Assembly: GCA_004298675.1 (NCBI GenBank)
Contig: SCRI01000020.1
Span: forward strand, 1-46,967
Length of the DNA: 46,967 nucleotides
Reading direction: 5' to 3'
From: a bacterium
GTDB taxonomy: Bacteria; Vulcanimicrobiota; Vulcanimicrobiia; Vulcanimicrobiales; SCRA01
Part shown: positions 5,594 to 37,315 of the stretch, one piece after another
How the letters are laid out: each line of letters opens with the position of its first letter
Position numbering within the stretch: position 1 is the first letter of the stretch
Notes under the pieces: model-generated
Database searches by the model: none
What the model saw: only the letters and a program-made list of their open reading frames with translations
Told to the model about the DNA's origin: nothing
Made by a program: the position numbers and the translations under genes

Positions 5594-6415
5594 CTACTCC
5601 TCGCCGAGGATGCCCTTGAGTTTCTCGAGCGCCTTCTGCTGCAAACGTGAGATGTGCATCTGCGAGACATTCAACCGCCGCGCGATCTCGGTTTGGCTGA
5701 CGTTTTGGTAGAAGCGTAAGTACAGGATCAAGCGCTCGCGGCGGCTGAGCGCTTCGAAGGCGCGCTCCAAGTTGGCGCGGTCCTCAGTCTGCGCCAGGCC
5801 GATATCCTCGGCGCCCAGGTAGTCCAGCAGCGTCGCGGACTTCTTCTCGTTCTCGCCGCCCAGCTCGGTGTCGAGCGAGAGCACGTTGTAGGCCTGCCCC
5901 AGCTCCTGCGCCTCGAGGATCTGTTCGTCGGATACTTCCAAGTGTTCCGCCAAGTCTGAGACCGTCGGACTGCGGTTGAGTTTGCTGGTGAGCATCTCCA
6001 CGGCGCGGTTGACGGCGAGGTTGAGCTCCTGTAGCCGGCGCGGCACTTTGACCGCCCAGCCCTTGTCGCGAAAGTAGCGCTTGATCTCACCAACGATGGT
6101 CGGCGTCGCGTAGGTGGTGAATTCGACCTTGCGCTCGAGATCGAAGCGATCGATCGCCTTGATCAGGCCGACCGTGCCTACCTGGATGAGGTCGTCGAGC
6201 GTCTCACCGCGGTTAGCGAACTTCACGGCCAGGTAGCGCACCAGGTTGAGGTGCATCACCACCAACTCCGAGCGCAGGCGCTCGTACTCGTCGTGCTGCG
6301 CCCCCCTGCCGGATCGCGTTCCCAGCAGCTTGCGCAACTCCGAGAAGCGCGCGAAAGCGGCGCGCGCCCGCTCGCGGTCCCAGCGTTGCTCCTCCGACGC
6401 AGCAGTCCGGCTCAC
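5594..6415 (-). CDS. sigB: SigB/SigF-type RNA polymerase sigma factor
   Basis: Group 3 sigma-70 factor, about 273 aa from the GTG at 6415. That start has an AGGGG site 7 bp upstream and follows the anti-sigma stop by 10 bp; longer in-frame starts overlap rsbW. Region 2 is clear (LVRYLAVKFANRGETLDDLIQ, VGLIKAIDRFD, FTTYATPTIVGEIKRYFRDK), then region 3 (VPRRLQELNLAVNRA) and region 4 with its helix-turn-helix (LSRRERLILYLRF, SQTEIARRLNVSQMHISRLQ). This family directs stress or developmental transcription and is held inactive by an RsbW/SpoIIAB kinase, whose gene lies immediately upstream. The inducing stress cannot be read from sequence. Confidence 0.95.
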   Translation of the reverse strand: MSRTAASEEQRWDRERARAAFARFSELRKLLGTRSGRGAQHDEYERLRSELVVMHLNLVRYLAVKFANRGETLDDLIQVGTVGLIKAIDRFDLERKVEFTTYATPTIVGEIKRYFRDKGWAVKVPRRLQELNLAVNRAVEMLTSKLNRSPTVSDLAEHLEVSDEQILEAQELGQAYNVLSLDTELGGENEKKSATLLDYLGAEDIGLAQTEDRANLERAFEALSRRERLILYLRFYQNVSQTEIARRLNVSQMHISRLQQKALEKLKGILGEE

Positions 6416-6425
6416 GCCCGTGCCC

Positions 6426-6845
6426 CTATGTTGAGCCTGCAACGCGCTTGACCATGCGCAGAAAGAGACCCGCACCTTCGTCGCGGCGATACTCCACGTC
6501 ATCCATCAACGAGCGAATGAGAAAGATGCCGAGCCGTCCTCCGCCCAATTCCGCGGACTCCTCGCCGCCGGAACGGCCGCCGCCGTTGTCGCGCACCACG
6601 ATCCGCAGCTCCTCTGGAGCCATCTCGCTGGTGAGCACGATTTCGTTGGCATGAGGTGAGTGCTGGATACAGTTGGTGCAAGCCTCGGCAACGGCGAGCT
6701 TCACGTCCTCGATCTCTTCGACCGTGAAGTGCAGGCGATTGGCGATACCCGCAACGGCCAGGCGCGCCACGCTCACGAACTCCGGTTTACACGGAATCCG
6801 CAACTCGACGACGTTGACGCTCTCGCTCTCCTGCTGGACGGTCAT
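6426..6845 (-). CDS. rsbW: Anti-sigma factor serine kinase, RsbW/SpoIIAB family
   Basis: A 139-residue GHKL ATPase. The ATG at 6845 follows the rsbV stop by 2 bp. The ATP-binding N box is EACTNCIQH (E54, N58, H62), the G1 box is VRDNGGG (D86), and a G2 glycine cluster, GGGRLGIFLIRSLMDDVEY, starts near residue 101. Known role: it binds and inhibits the cognate sigma factor, and phosphorylates the RsbV-type antagonist on serine. The order rsbV-rsbW-sigB matches the Bacillus sigB and spoIIA operons. No RsbU-like PP2C phosphatase is visible nearby, so the upstream signal input must be encoded elsewhere. Confidence 0.95.
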   Translation of the reverse strand: MTVQQESESVNVVELRIPCKPEFVSVARLAVAGIANRLHFTVEEIEDVKLAVAEACTNCIQHSPHANEIVLTSEMAPEELRIVVRDNGGGRSGGEESAELGGGRLGIFLIRSLMDDVEYRRDEGAGLFLRMVKRVAGST

Positions 6846-32727: not shown

Positions 32728-32912
32728 CGCGCGCTCCACCGTGTCGTATCGAGCCTAAGGTTAGAACCTGCTCTCGCAGGTGGGTGCGTCCCGGCCGCCT
32801 GGGCAACGATGGCAAGCATCGCTGCGCGTATCGTCACCGGAGATGGTGCTCCCTTGGGTCGTTACGTTGGCTCTACACCGACGGCTCGTCCACGTGCACC
32901 GCAGGGCGCGCT
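32728..32912 (-). ncRNA. Candidate structured RNA, about 185 nt, 6S-RNA-like
   Basis: This gene-free stretch folds on the minus strand as one long imperfect hairpin with side hairpins. The ends pair: GCGCGC (32906-32911) with GCGCGC (32729-32734), CGTG (32891-32894) with CACG (32740-32743), and CGAGCC (32883-32888) with GGCTCG (32750-32755). Inside are a 7-bp hairpin AGCGATG/CATCGTT (32805-32823) and a perfect 6-bp hairpin ACCTGC-GAGA-GCAGGT closed by a GNRA tetraloop (32766-32781). An extended -10 element lies 6 bp upstream. Length and rod shape recall 6S RNA, which mimics an open promoter. The identity is inference. Confidence 0.5.
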
Positions 32913-32990: not shown

Positions 32991-34007
32991 ATGGCCGACT
33001 TGAAGCTCGAGTTGACGCGGCTGGAAATGCCGCTCAAGCACACCTTCACCATCGCGCGCGGCAGCACGGAAGTGGCGCGCACCCTGCTCTTCTCTCTGAG
33101 CGACGGTGAGCGTACCGGCTTGGGTGAATCCTCGCCCGTCAGCCGCTACGGCGAGAGCATCGAGTCCCTGGAGGCCTACTGGAGCGCCTTCGGCTCGCTG
33201 GGCGACGACCCGTTCGATCTACAGAACCCGCTGACTGGGCACACGCCCCCCGCGGCACGCACCGGTCTGGACATCGCCCTGCACGATTTGATCGGCCAGC
33301 GCCTGGGTATCCCGCTCTGGCGCTACTTCGGCCTCGACCCCGCGCGCACGCCATACACCTCGTTCACGGTCGGCATCGACGATCCGGCGAAGATGCTCGA
33401 CAAGGTGCGCGAAGTCGGCGAGCACCCCGTGCTGAAGGTCAAGCTTGGTACCGGCAACGAGATCGAGGTGCTGCGTGCCATTCGTGGCATCTACCACGGC
33501 ACGATCCGCATCGACGCCAACGAGGGCTGGACCCCGGAGCGCGCCGTGGCGGTACTGCGCGAGATCGAACCCTTGGAGATCGAATTCTGCGAGCAGCCCA
33601 TTCCCGCGGGCAGCCCCGAGCAGCTGCGCTGGATCAAGGAGCGCACGAAGATTCCGATCGTCACCGACGAGGATAGCTGCAACGCGAGCGATCTGCCCAA
33701 ACTCTACGGGTGCGTCGACGGCATCAACGTCAAGCTCGTGAAGTGCGGCGGCATCCGTGGCGCACTGGAGATGATCCACACCGCGCGCGCGTGCAACTTC
33801 AAGATCATGCTGGGCTGCATGGTGGAGAGCGGCATCCTGCAGACGGCGGCGGCCCATCTTTCGCCGCTGGTCGACTGGGCCGACCTCGACGGAGCCTTCC
33901 TGCTGCGCGAGAACCCGTACGTCGGCATGACCTACCGCAACGGCAAGATCATGCTCCCCGATGCGCCGGGCCTGGGCGTGCACCCAGCGAGCGCGCTCGC
34001 GCGCTGA
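32991..34007 (+). CDS. dgcA: Enolase-superfamily epimerase (dipeptide epimerase / DgcA-like)
   Basis: A 338-residue enolase-superfamily enzyme of the muconate-cycloisomerase/L-Ala-D/L-Glu epimerase subgroup. Catalytic and metal features: the KxK motif VLKVKLG (Lys149, Lys151), metal ligands in RIDANEGW (Asp175), CEQP (Glu201) and TDED (Asp226), and the second base in INVKLVKCGG (about 247-254). Such proteins epimerise the D/L-Glu part of Ala-Glu. When paired with DUF1611 they have been described as DgcA, racemising N-acetyl-D-Glu to N-acetyl-L-Glu. A DUF1611 gene lies 2 kb downstream (36020), which favours the DgcA reading. Cytoplasmic. Substrate not provable here. Confidence 0.88.
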   Translation: MADLKLELTRLEMPLKHTFTIARGSTEVARTLLFSLSDGERTGLGESSPVSRYGESIESLEAYWSAFGSLGDDPFDLQNPLTGHTPPAARTGLDIALHDLIGQRLGIPLWRYFGLDPARTPYTSFTVGIDDPAKMLDKVREVGEHPVLKVKLGTGNEIEVLRAIRGIYHGTIRIDANEGWTPERAVAVLREIEPLEIEFCEQPIPAGSPEQLRWIKERTKIPIVTDEDSCNASDLPKLYGCVDGINVKLVKCGGIRGALEMIHTARACNFKIMLGCMVESGILQTAAAHLSPLVDWADLDGAFLLRENPYVGMTYRNGKIMLPDAPGLGVHPASALAR

Positions 34008-34111: not shown

Positions 34112-35335
34112 ATGTCCGCGATCTCGCGCGGCGGCGTCTTCGCGTCGCCATCGTTCCGTCAATATTTCGCCGGCCAAGCCTTCTCATACGTGGGCGATGG
34201 ATTACGCACGCTGGCGGTGCCGTTGCTGGTCTACCACCTGACCCATTCCGCGCTCTCCACCAGCGTTTCGTACGCCTGCGAGCTGGGGCCGTTTGCGCTC
34301 TTCGGCCTGGTGGGCGGGTCGCTGGCCGACCGCGTCGACCGCCGCCGCCTGATGATCGGCTGCGATCTCATCCGCTTCGCCGTGATGACGGCGTTCGCGC
34401 TGGCGTTTGCGCTGGGGGCGCTGACCGTCCCCATGCTCTATGCGGGCCTGGTCGTGATCTCGATCTGCGCTGCGTTCTTTCTGGGCGGGCAGTCGTCGAG
34501 CATCCCCTACCTGCTCGGCAAATCGCAGACGACGCAAGCTACCGCGGCGTTGATGGCCGCCGAGAGCACCTCCAACATGATCGCGCCGATGGCCGGCGGC
34601 GCGCTCTTCGGCATCTTCGGGCCGCTGCCGGCGCTGGCGATCAACGCCATCACCTACCTCGGCTCGCAAGCGTCGCTGGTGCTGGTGCCGACGCTCGGCC
34701 CGGACGATCCGCACGGTCTGCCGGACCTGCATACCATCGGCCGCGACGTGGCCGCGGGATTCCGCTTCTTGTGGCGCGACGCCACCATGCGCGCCGTCTC
34801 GCTCACAAGCTTCTTCCTGAACGTCTTCGGCATGGGCGCCTACGCGATTTTGATCCCGTTCCTCAAGCGCGGCTTCGGCGCCAGCGACACGAGTGTGGGC
34901 CTCTTCCTGGGCCTGAGCGCGTGCGGCGCCGTAGCGGGCGCCCTACTGGCCGGCAAGCTCGACCGGCACTGGCCCTTCGGCCGCGCGCTGACCATCGCGT
35001 ACGTCGTCGACGCACTCTTCTTTATCCCCGTGGTGCTGACACACCAGCTCTGGCTCGCCGCCACGCTCTGGGCCATCGGCAACGCCGGCGCGCAGTTCGA
35101 GGCCACGCAGATCGTCGGCTGGCGCCTGCGCGTCGTCCCCGACGAGTTGGTGGGGCGTGTCTTCGGAGCCGTGCGCCTCTTCGTGCTCTGCGGCATCGTG
35201 CCGGGGGTGGTGTTCTTCGGATACGTTGCCGATCGCTACGGCCCGCGCCTCGCGCTGGCACTCTGCACGCTGGGCTACGTGGTGGTGGCGCTGGCAGCGG
35301 CTCTTACCCCGGCCATCCGCGATGATGACCGCTGA
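34112..35335 (+). CDS. MFS transporter, EntS/MFS_3-like exporter
   Basis: A 407-residue major facilitator with about twelve hydrophobic segments. The loop 2-3 motif is GGSLADRVDRRRLMIGCDL, the usual MFS signature A, and a related GYVADRYGPRLALALC repeats it in the second half. The N-terminus SPSFRQYFAGQAFSYVGDGLRTLAVPLLVYHLT is typical of the MFS_3/EntS exporter group, which mostly exports small molecules. Because it sits between the epimerase and the DUF1611 gene, amino-acid or peptide transport is possible, but the subgroup argues for export. It has its own promoter. Confidence 0.9.
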   Translation: MSAISRGGVFASPSFRQYFAGQAFSYVGDGLRTLAVPLLVYHLTHSALSTSVSYACELGPFALFGLVGGSLADRVDRRRLMIGCDLIRFAVMTAFALAFALGALTVPMLYAGLVVISICAAFFLGGQSSSIPYLLGKSQTTQATAALMAAESTSNMIAPMAGGALFGIFGPLPALAINAITYLGSQASLVLVPTLGPDDPHGLPDLHTIGRDVAAGFRFLWRDATMRAVSLTSFFLNVFGMGAYAILIPFLKRGFGASDTSVGLFLGLSACGAVAGALLAGKLDRHWPFGRALTIAYVVDALFFIPVVLTHQLWLAATLWAIGNAGAQFEATQIVGWRLRVVPDELVGRVFGAVRLFVLCGIVPGVVFFGYVADRYGPRLALALCTLGYVVVALAAALTPAIRDDDR

Positions 35336-35347
35336 TACGTTGCCTCG

Positions 35348-35376
35348 TTGACGAACGCGCGCAAGCGTGGTACGTT
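35348..35376 (+). promoter_or_regulatory. Promoter upstream of the GNAT leader
   Basis: TTGACG (35348-35353) and TACGTT (35371-35376) are 17 bp apart, and a TGG precedes the -10 hexamer, making it an extended -10. The start would fall near 35383, only about 3 bp before the leader-peptide ATG. It lies 12 bp after the transporter stop codon. Confidence 0.5.
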
Positions 35377-35385
35377 CTCTCTCAC

Positions 35386-35463
35386 ATGAATCTAGGAAAC
35401 CGCGTTCGTCGACCGTCCCAGAAGCTCGCGCGCCCCGCGCCGGGCTTTGTCGGCATGCTCTGA
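35386..35463 (+). CDS. Putative 25-residue leader peptide
   Basis: A short reading frame, ATG at 35386 to TGA at 35461-35463. It begins MNLGNRVRRPSQKL and ends GFVGML, with Arg at 6, 8, 9 and 16. It lies between a promoter and an intrinsic terminator, the normal position of an attenuation leader peptide. With so short a 5' leader it would be translated almost leaderless. The bases of codons 16-18 (35431-35438) can pair, with one bulge, with the first arm of the terminator (35489-35495), so a ribosome there could decide between two folds. It is too short for codon statistics. Confidence 0.4.
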   Translation: MNLGNRVRRPSQKLARPAPGFVGML

Positions 35464-35488
35464 CGGCGAAGCGGACAGCGGAGATTGC

Positions 35489-35526
35489 GCGGGCGTACCG
35501 AGGACGGTACGCCCGCTATTTTTTTT
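35489..35526 (+). terminator. Intrinsic terminator directly before the GNAT ribosome site
   Basis: A perfect 11-bp stem, GCGGGCGTACC (35489-35499) with GGTACGCCCGC (35506-35516), a 6-base loop GAGGAC, then TA and eight T (35519-35526). This is the strongest intrinsic terminator visible in the window. The T run passes directly into GGAGGAAGGGAG, the ribosome site of the GNAT gene, so transcription of that gene depends on read-through. That suggests attenuation. Confidence 0.9.
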
Positions 35527-35540
35527 GGAGGAAGGGAGCC

Positions 35541-36008
35541 ATGGAGATCGCGGAGTCCGCGGAGGTCTACATCGCACGCGCCTCGATCGCCGACGCGTAC
35601 GATCTGACGTGTCTGCGCGCTGCCAGCCTGGTGGAGATGGGGCTGATGCAGCCGTCGGAGCGTGATGCCTTCCTCCCGCGGGCCCATCGCGAGTTCGTCC
35701 AACTGCTGCGCGAGGAGCGCTTCGCCGCATGGCTGCTGGTGAGCGCGGGGCGCCCCGCCGGCTGCGCCGGCGTGCTGCTATGGCAGCGCGTCCCCTATCC
35801 CACCACCTCACTCCACGCGGAAGTCGCCGGCGTCTACGTCGAGCCCGCGCTACGCGGGCAAGGCTACGCGCGCGAGATGGTCAGCGAGGCGATCTCCTGG
35901 GCGCGCGCCTCCCAACCGCGCCGGGTGGTGCTGCACGTGAATCCCGCCGCGCGCTCGCTCTACGAGCGGCTGGGATTCGTCGACGGGAGCGAGATGCGCC
36001 TAGCGTAG
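35541..36008 (+). CDS. GNAT-family N-acetyltransferase
   Basis: A 155-residue single GNAT domain. The acetyl-CoA pyrophosphate loop is VEPALRGQGYAREMVSEAI (R-G-Q-G-Y-A), and the C-terminal strand pair VVLHVNPAARSLYERLGFVDG is standard. The ATG at 35541 follows a long purine-rich site (GGAGGAAGGGAG, 35527-35538) placed just behind the terminator. The substrate is unknown. It is followed after 11 bp by the DUF1611 gene, so the two are one unit. In this context amino-acid acetylation is conceivable, but that is inference. Confidence 0.9.
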   Translation: MEIAESAEVYIARASIADAYDLTCLRAASLVEMGLMQPSERDAFLPRAHREFVQLLREERFAAWLLVSAGRPAGCAGVLLWQRVPYPTTSLHAEVAGVYVEPALRGQGYAREMVSEAISWARASQPRRVVLHVNPAARSLYERLGFVDGSEMRLA

Positions 36009-36019
36009 AAGAGCCCTCC

Positions 36020-37111
36020 ATGTCCGAGCATGCTAGACGCTACATCGCTTACGCCCCCGGCTCGTTCGCCACGCGCAAGGCCAAGACGGCCCACGGCGTC
36101 ATCGCTTACGGCGTCGACACCGTCGTCGCGGTCGTCGATCCCAGCAACGCCGGCAGTTCCGTGCGCCAGGTACTGCCCCATCTCGATAGCGACGCGCCGA
36201 TCGTAGCGACGCTGCAGGAGGCATTGGCACAGCGCCCCACGGCGCTGCTGCTGGGCACCGCGCCTCAAGGCGGCGCACTGCCGGCGGATTGGCGCGCCGA
36301 CGTCCTGCGCGCCATCACGGAGCGCTTGGAGATCGTGAGCGGCCTGCACGACTTCCTGGGCGACGACGCGGAGTTTGCCGCCGCGGCGCGCCTGGCCGGC
36401 ACGCGCCTCTGGGACGTACGCAAGCCGCCGCACGTGCCGCTTTTCTCGGGCGCCGCCTGGGACGCGCCGCAGCACGTCTGCCTCTTTGTCGGCAGCGACT
36501 GCGCCGTCGGCAAGATGACCGCCGCGCTGGAGCTGACGCGCGCCGCCAACGCCGCCGGCCGGACGGCGGAGTTTCTCGCTACCGGCCAGACCGGCATCAT
36601 GATCGCCGGGAAGGGCATTGCGGTGGACTGCGTGGTCTCCGACTTCGTCTCCGGCGCCACCGAGCAACTCGTCACCGGCGCCGATCCCAACGCCCAACTG
36701 CTGTTCGTGGAGGGTCAGGGCAGCATCAATCATCCCGCCTACGCGCAGGTGACGCTAGGGCTGCTCTACGGTAGCGGCGCCGACTCGCTGATCCTCACGC
36801 ACGCCGCCGGACGCAACGAGATCGACACCTACGGCACGCCGATCCTGCCGTTGACGGAACTGATCGCTCTCTACGAGCGTCTCTGCGCCACGGTCAAGCC
36901 CGCGCAGGTAGCCGGCATCTGTCTCAATACCCGCGAGCTCGACGACGCCGCGGCGCGCAGCGCCATCGCCCGAGCCGAATCCGAGACGGGTCTCCCGGCC
37001 GACGATGTCGTGCGCTTCGGTCCGCGACGCCTGTACTCCGCGCTTGCATCGCGCTTGCAGCGCAAGACGCTCCCGCTGGGATCACGCGCCGCGGCCACGC
37101 ATCTGCTCTGA
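36020..37111 (+). CDS. dgcN: DUF1611 P-loop protein, DgcN-like N-acetyltransferase candidate
   Basis: A 363-residue DUF1611 protein. The N-terminal Rossmann-like half (about 1-140) begins RYIAYAPGSFATRKAKTAHGVIAYG. The C-terminal P-loop half has FVGSDCAVGKMTAALEL (loop at 158-167), then ATGQTGIMIAGKGIAVD, SDFVSGATEQLV, and LLFVEGQGSINHPAY. In characterised dgcN-dgcA pairs the DUF1611 protein N-acetylates D-glutamate and the epimerase then makes N-acetyl-L-Glu. The paired epimerase is 2 kb upstream here, with an exporter and a GNAT gene between. The ATG at 36020 is chosen because the frame upstream overlaps the GNAT gene. The family is firm, the reaction inferred. Confidence 0.88.
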   Translation: MSEHARRYIAYAPGSFATRKAKTAHGVIAYGVDTVVAVVDPSNAGSSVRQVLPHLDSDAPIVATLQEALAQRPTALLLGTAPQGGALPADWRADVLRAITERLEIVSGLHDFLGDDAEFAAAARLAGTRLWDVRKPPHVPLFSGAAWDAPQHVCLFVGSDCAVGKMTAALELTRAANAAGRTAEFLATGQTGIMIAGKGIAVDCVVSDFVSGATEQLVTGADPNAQLLFVEGQGSINHPAYAQVTLGLLYGSGADSLILTHAAGRNEIDTYGTPILPLTELIALYERLCATVKPAQVAGICLNTRELDDAAARSAIARAESETGLPADDVVRFGPRRLYSALASRLQRKTLPLGSRAAATHLL

Positions 37112-37126
37112 GCCGTGGAATCGCGC

Positions 37127-37315
37127 TCAGGCGCGGGTATTGACCGTGGCTCCGATCGGCTCGTCGCCGTCGCGGACGCCCTTCTGAGCCTCGAGCAACT
37201 GCTCGCTCTTGAATGCGGCGATGGTCTGGGGCTGAAGAGCCGGGGTCTGGCTTTGAACGTGCTGAGCCTGCTGTGCCCCGGCGGCACCAAGGCTGACACT
37301 CGCAATGTTCGACAT
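37127..37315 (-). CDS. Small YjfB-like putative motility protein
   Basis: A 62-residue ORF on the strand opposite to its neighbours. Composition is Ala/Gln/Ser-rich with an amphipathic middle (TIAAFKSEQLLEAQK) and an ending IGATVNTRA. The small 60-70-residue YjfB/putative-motility family has the same shape: an N-terminal MxxIAS-like start, Gln-rich helix, and final (L/I)G-x-x-(V/I)(N/D)-x-x-A. That match is from memory and needs a search. A plausible promoter lies upstream. The plus-strand frame here is just the unused upstream extension of the protease gene. Confidence 0.55.
   Translation of the reverse strand: MSNIASVSLGAAGAQQAQHVQSQTPALQPQTIAAFKSEQLLEAQKGVRDGDEPIGATVNTRA

Follow-up and report, generated by a model that had tools for sequence, protein, structure and literature searches.

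A predicted ribosome-mediated transcription attenuator sensing arginine precedes GNAT acetyltransferase or argH genes in Eremiobacterota

Introduction

Attenuators have been reported for trp, his, thr, phe, leu and cys genes, and the same comparative survey places arginine under T-boxes (PMC1262725), with arginine T-box leaders found in Firmicutes (PMC1262725). In mycobacteria, leaderless short ORFs with polycysteine tracts are amino-acid-responsive attenuators according to the account that cites them (Canestrari et al. 2020, cited in PMC9094748), and in Salmonella the speF leader frame ORF34 senses arginine through two consecutive arginine codons and alters downstream RNA folding (PMC6386406). 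Thermus and Deinococcus have been reported to carry a short N-acetylglutamate synthase (NAGS) gene beside argH (PMC1382215), and short NAGS or arg(A) adjoins argH or is fused with it (PMC1382215; PMC4490483). In the open-access papers searched, we found no earlier report of a terminator-type ribosome-mediated attenuator of arginine biosynthesis.

Here we describe a leader upstream of a GNAT acetyltransferase gene in a stretch of 46,967 nucleotides (hereafter the window) and its counterparts in bacteria from soil and groundwater that belong to the phylum Eremiobacterota. In our view, this leader probably (roughly 0.8) acts as a ribosome-mediated transcription attenuator whose signal is charged arginyl-tRNA. 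Independent lines of evidence support attenuation by ribosome position well; the reading is weakest on the role of the GNAT and on the physiological range of the control in the window's own genus.

Results

Layout of the leader in the window

The elements of the leader and the two genes that follow it are listed in Table 1. The extended -10 promoter that the original prediction had placed upstream of the leader frame is present, and the sequence bears out a 25-codon frame with arginine at codons 6, 8, 9 and 16. Given the distance from the -10 element to the start codon, the transcript is predicted to begin at the leader ATG or not more than about 3 nt away from it, which would make the frame essentially leaderless. 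The terminator had been described as an 11-bp stem with a T8 tract running straight into the ribosome site; the T8 tract and the abutting GGAGG are as described, and the stem has 12 pairs rather than 11. Three terminator-like sites occur in the window against 3.2 expected, so a terminator alone is at chance level in this GC-rich stretch and the case rests on comparison across relatives. An EntS/Mef-type MFS transporter gene lies upstream of the leader (34112-35335, + strand), and another gene is found at this place in G002 and G001.

Table 1 Features of the predicted attenuator and of the genes behind it in the window
Feature	Position	Strand	Detail or basis
Promoter	35348-35376	+	TTGACG 35348-35353, 17-nt spacer, TG-extended TACGTT 35371-35376
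Leader ORF, 25 codons and TGA, MNLGNRVRRPSQKLARPAPGFVGML	35386-35463	+	Start codon 9 nt after -10
Control codon CGA (Arg 9)	35410-35412	+	Arg 8 before, Pro after
Segment a, 5' base of antiterminator; pairs with d, alternatively with b	35424-35431	+	Covariation
Segment b, antiterminator upper stem, inside leader ORF	35444-35452	+	Fold in all leaders
Segment c, pairs with b; leader stop codon just before, in apical loop	35464-35472	+	Fold
Segment d, antiterminator 3' base, overlaps terminator first arm	35487-35494	+	Covariation, fold
Intrinsic terminator, 12-bp stem 35489-35516 and T8 35519-35526	35489-35526	+	Sequence
Shine-Dalgarno GGAGG of GNAT gene, abutting T tract	35527-35531	+	Sequence
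GNAT acetyltransferase, candidate short N-acetylglutamate synthase	35541-36008	+	Pfam Acetyltransf_1 1.3e-16
dgcN-like (DUF1611) gene, second of unit in the window's genus	36020-37111	+	PF07755/PF17396

Conservation of the leader among relatives

A DNA search of relatives recovered the leader in three congeners, and the G001 copy carries a 3-nt indel that preserves the frame; weak matches from this search (L005-L007) were rejected as coding sequence of unrelated genes. By running a covariance model built from 14 leaders on 103 genomes of the order, we found 18 leaders scoring 73-119 bits, with the next match at 33 bits, and no leader was found by this model in other classes of the phylum. The matches at or below 33 bits (L122-L134) were dismissed as generic terminators with no arg or GNAT gene at them.

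The complete layout thus recurs in 18 genomes of six genera. Each of the 18 combines a frame of 23-27 codons, predicted to be leaderless or nearly so, with a single long antiterminator hairpin and a terminator; the frame is kept throughout, with indels in multiples of 3. The original prediction had called for homologous leaders to be compared for a conserved small frame and terminator, and both are retained in 18/18, while a terminator lacking the frame or the alternative fold occurred in 0/18. The distance from the -10 element to the start codon is 6-10 nt in 16 of the 18 leaders (9 or 10 in 12 of them), and TTGAC(G/A) together with a -10 element starting in TA at 17-18 nt spacing is found in 14 of the 18; the promoters of G026 and G004 match poorly. 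Nearly all stem pairs of the terminator are preserved across 14 leaders.

The leader peptide beyond the R-P core is unconserved except where RNA pairing demands it. Pairwise codon changes among the leaders showed no synonymous excess, and since synonymous and non-synonymous counts give no coding signal by themselves, translation of the leader is deduced from the frame and the arginine codons rather than from dN/dS. No Rfam family matches the leader, and no T-box consensus or specifier loop was found in it.

Antiterminator fold and ribosome position

Each leader forms a single long hairpin, at -33 to -52 kcal/mol, from the RNA that begins 13 nt past the first base of CGA and extends to the first arm of the terminator. 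The z-scores of this antiterminator hairpin range from -3.1 to -6.6 in 10 of the 11 leaders folded, and that of the window genome (G000) is -1.07, which is ordinary for its composition. The base stem joins a segment inside the leader ORF to the 5' arm of the terminator: in the window, segment a (GCTCGCGC) pairs with segment d (GCGCGGGC), and the other variants are GCCCATGC:GCATGGGC, GCGCCCGT:ACGGGCGC and GCCTA:TAGGC. An alternative pairing with the first arm of the terminator had been proposed from 35431-35438; such a pairing exists and covaries, and the conserved one uses 35424-35431 instead. In the a:d covariation analysis, 98.1% of cells were paired versus 91.7% when shuffled, double-change cells numbered 9 versus 2.1 in shuffles, and the covariation score was reached by 0 of 500 shuffles; the analysis was also computed on a 14-row alignment. 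The smaller a:b hairpin also covaries and may serve as a pause or competing hairpin. RNAalifold alone chose this short hairpin over the long antiterminator, a choice we rejected as probably caused by MAFFT misalignment of the variable upper stem.

We then considered the position of the ribosome by computing folds in which only the RNA ahead of it was allowed to pair. When CGA occupies the A site, the probability that arm d is captured by upstream RNA is 1.00 in 18/18 leaders, and the mean drops to 0.71, 0.39 and 0.25 at the next three codons. Beyond CGA, a stalled ribosome no longer leaves the antiterminator reliably free; this boundary holds as long as the ribosome edge is assumed to lie 12-14 nt downstream of the A site, and moves by one codon for other edges. 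At full-length equilibrium, a ribosome on CGA gives the antiterminator at 0.92-0.99 in every one of the 14 leaders from other genera than the window's, and one on the stop codon gives the terminator at 0.81-1.00 in all 18 leaders. The terminator stem is longer in the window's genus, and in G000 and its congeners the antiterminator reaches only 0.00-0.11 at full-length equilibrium. As the terminator wins there, read-through in this genus would need kinetic trapping or be modest; a stalled ribosome favours the antiterminator in these leaders only before the terminator is complete. The antiterminator was also computed to form before completion of the terminator when no ribosome is present, so that failed leader translation would read through as well. 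These computed folds suggest that the structure adopted depends on where the ribosome stands, which lends support to the original prediction that ribosome position controls read-through, with the small frame, terminator and alternative fold all kept by the relatives.

The control codon

The control position is occupied by CGA in 18/18 leaders, which are not independent of each other and span six genera. CGA makes up 3 of 158 arginine codons in window genes (1.9%) and 49 of 1169 in relatives (4.2%). Upstream of the hairpin, arginine accounts for 44 of 138 residues (32%, CGA included), compared with 7.5% in window genes, and no other residue is as enriched. A proline codon directly follows CGA in 17 of the 18 leaders, and the spacing from CGA to the hairpin is fixed, at 14 nt in 10 leaders and 17 nt in 8. 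The hexamer CGACCG is nearly invariant and may have a nucleotide-level role. On comparison across the relatives, the frame, the CGA codon, its spacing, the covarying antiterminator, the terminator and the linkage to arginine genes described below are all conserved.

Genes behind the leader and linkage to arginine genes

Searches with the GNAT returned orthologues at 38-54% identity, and all but one of them (14/15; the exception is G014) have the leader layout upstream. Viewed from the side of the 18 leaders, 14 lie before a GNAT gene, three (G010, G060 and G050) lie directly before argH with no intact GNAT at the leader, and one (G005) lies before a decayed GNAT tail. A truncated GNAT start is retained in G010. 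The G005 copy (L121 / L139) is a decaying one: its leader and terminator are complete, and of the GNAT only the C-terminal tail is left. No argJ was detected in this genome. The GNAT orthologue without an attenuator in G014 (L103, about 5999-6499, - strand) overlaps a Crp-like regulator gene and also adjoins a gene resembling chorismate synthase.

The neighbours in genus g2 encode ornithine carbamoyltransferase, ArgR, argininosuccinate synthase and argininosuccinate lyase, all above curated cut-offs. The gene order is argF-argR-argG-leader-GNAT-argH in G100, G037 and G101, leader-GNAT is upstream of argF-R-G-H in G030 and G055, and the leaders without an intact GNAT are arranged as argF-R-G-leader-argH in G010 and, within the stretches examined, as argR-G-leader-argH in G060 and G050. 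In the window genome, argB-argF-argR-argG-argH and argJ are on another contig and the GNAT-dgcN unit is separate. That cluster (L138, G000:C74:74000-86500) has argJ downstream, and the covariance model found no copy of the attenuator at it. Judged by these gene neighbourhoods, the controlled genes would belong to the arginine pathway, directly where the leader precedes argH (3 genomes) or sits at an arg cluster (5 more) and indirectly in the window.

The original prediction had assigned the leader to a GNAT-dgcN unit, which does not hold, because across relatives the leader goes together with GNAT and not with dgcN. By gene order, the conserved unit is leader-GNAT or leader-argH, and GNAT-dgcN appears specific to the window's genus. 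We discarded the idea that dgcN is the gene to which the leader belongs, since in the sister family f2 the dgcN gene mostly lies right beside dgcA and has no leader. In the window's genus, other genes and leader-GNAT lie between them, and the gene between dgcA and leader-GNAT is the MFS gene in the window and an unrelated one in G001.

The occurrence of the same leader before argH without GNAT breaks the link to an acetyltransferase or an antibiotic and points to arginine. Arginine is most likely the signal, as suggested by codon identity and gene linkage, and it is the best supported one for two reasons: the leader is found before argH and at argFRG(H), and the position at the boundary of the ribosome footprint always holds the same rare arginine codon. 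Arginine starvation had been proposed from the outset as an appealing signal, with antibiotic stalling or a small-molecule sensor considered to fit equally well; the leader before argH and the invariant CGA now disfavour these two.

The GNAT and its surroundings

The AlphaFold model of the GNAT (pLDDT 92) has a generic GNAT fold, and a fold search matched only generic GNATs. The protein falls far below the cut-off of every NAGS (ArgA, S-NAGS, CG3035), AAC and RimI family, and its candidate role as an N-acetylglutamate synthase comes from gene context. No classical ArgA passes the cut-off among 21 relatives and ArgJ is present in every leader-bearing genome except G005; the GNAT would therefore act as an anaplerotic synthase, much like the short NAGS beside argH in Thermus and Deinococcus. 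Among viral contigs, no relatives of the GNAT could be confirmed.

The product of the dgcN-like gene scores 244 bits with NCBIfam DgcN, under the equivalog cut-off of 480 for D-glutamate N-acetyltransferase. An enolase-superfamily gene at 32991-34007 (+ strand) is nearest DgcA (N-acetyl-D-Glu racemase) at 228.7 bits, with a cut-off of 400. Between it and a sugar-isomerase-like gene sits a 6S / SsrS RNA (32729-32910, - strand; 48.7 against an Rfam gathering score of 46.4). Downstream of dgcN, on the opposite strand (37127-37315, -), is a 62-aa ORF to which no family was assigned.

Discussion

Based on the analyses above, we infer that the leader is transcribed and translated, stalls ribosomes and responds to arginine in the following way. 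RNA polymerase would start the RNA at the leader start codon or no more than about 3 nt from it, with a ribosome trailing it. When arginine is plentiful, the ribosome would pass the arginine codons and disrupt the 5' half of the antiterminator hairpin (35424-35494), upon which the terminator would form and transcription would stop. When charged tRNA-Arg for CGA is scarce, the ribosome would wait with this codon in the A site and its leading edge just before segment a; the antiterminator would then form and sequester the first arm of the terminator, and the polymerase would go on into GNAT (here also into dgcN, and in relatives into argH).

Other explanations of this layout have to be weighed against the sensing of arginine. 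One is that the leader peptide (R-V-R/R-R, codons 6-9) stalls drug-bound ribosomes and thereby induces a drug-modifying acetyltransferase. R-V-R/R-R resembles the +x+ motif of macrolide leaders, RVR is found at codons 6-8 in the window's genus, the standalone GNAT is weakly similar to aminoglycoside 6'-N-acetyltransferases, the leader of G000 lies downstream of an MFS transporter gene with similarity to the Mef/EntS families, and for hflX an Arg-Leu-Arg leader has been proposed as a drug sensor (PMC8632094). Yet R-x-R is unconserved, with R-R in most leaders and the rest of the peptide unconserved, a control codon that is always the rare CGA is needless for a peptide-level sensor, and the three genomes with argH and no intact GNAT behind the leader, together with the five in which GNAT is in or beside arg clusters, do not fit a drug response, all of which leaves this explanation unlikely. 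A stall on the proline codons after arginine (R-P-P), as in proline/EF-P sensing or an arrest peptide, would draw on the proline that nearly always follows CGA and on the frequency of R-P-P, and proline-rich motifs are translated slowly. With the ribosome one codon further on, however, the antiterminator is already down to 0.38-0.61 where the spacing is 14 nt (10 leaders), though it is not weakened where it is 17 nt (8 leaders), the second proline is missing in G000-G003, G026, G047 and G088, and the linked genes are arginine genes; we therefore give this explanation little credence.

The leader could also be an RNA bound by a protein or small molecule (ArgR, another arginine-binding factor or a riboswitch ligand) that carries an open frame by chance. 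Conservation of the a:b hairpin with covariation and the presence of ArgR in the arg cluster of the window genome would suit such an RNA, but it lacks a match to any Rfam family and a conserved unpaired core resembling a ligand pocket, and the frame, the identity of CGA and its fixed 14- or 17-nt spacing suit a ribosome instead, making a binding RNA quite improbable. Dominance of the terminator at equilibrium in the window's genus is what a constitutive partial terminator or sRNA source, acting at a fixed level without regulation, would show; against this, the covarying alternative fold, the Arg-rich frame and the positioned rare codon are evidently selected in six genera, and we consider it highly improbable. 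Attenuation by a ribosome waiting for charged arginyl-tRNA is thus the reading that we prefer.

A wider proposal is possible, though we hold it as doubtful. It describes an arginine-dedicated terminator-type attenuator with a leaderless ORF, a lone CGA sensor and no default termination when untranslated, in which the GNAT family is the N-acetylglutamate synthase of Eremiobacterota and a DgcN-type enzyme has been captured in the window's genus, where D-glutamate may feed arginine synthesis on starvation. The logic of the attenuator is simple and readable, with one rare codon at the ribosome edge across six genera, and the leader gives a functional clue to the GNAT family and, in the window's genus, to the DUF1611/DgcN gene.

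The present leader resembles the trp, his, leu, thr and phe attenuators in that its leader ORF contains control codons, its antiterminator and intrinsic terminator exclude each other, and the genes behind it are linked to synthesis of the amino acid concerned. The leu leader uses a rare control codon, as does the present one. It differs from these classical attenuators in its putative arginine signal, in essentially one invariant CGA instead of a codon run, in one long antiterminator hairpin that starts from the ribosome edge and holds the stop codon in its loop, and in a leader ORF predicted to be leaderless; read-through is also predicted here on an untranslated leader, unlike in trp. The mycobacterial polycysteine ORFs, as far as the citing account describes them, use a leaderless leader ORF as an amino-acid-responsive attenuator, as is predicted for the present leader, and they differ in their runs of cysteine codons and in that no conserved terminator hairpin was found there (PMC1262725). 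The Rhodobacterales cysS uORFC-8-2 motif, with tandem control codons, is likewise a proposed ribosome-mediated attenuator (PMC8632094), for cysteine, other genes and another lineage. Arginine T-boxes control arginine genes at the RNA level by tRNA-Arg charging, as the present leader would, whereas they bind the tRNA directly and have no translated leader. Short NAGS are small GNATs beside argH as well, and the present GNAT differs in scoring under all NAGS family cut-offs. The nearest Arg-codon leader is speF ORF34, which uses Rho and RNase G to control a catabolic gene, that of an ornithine decarboxylase, whereas the present leader places an intrinsic terminator before arginine biosynthesis.
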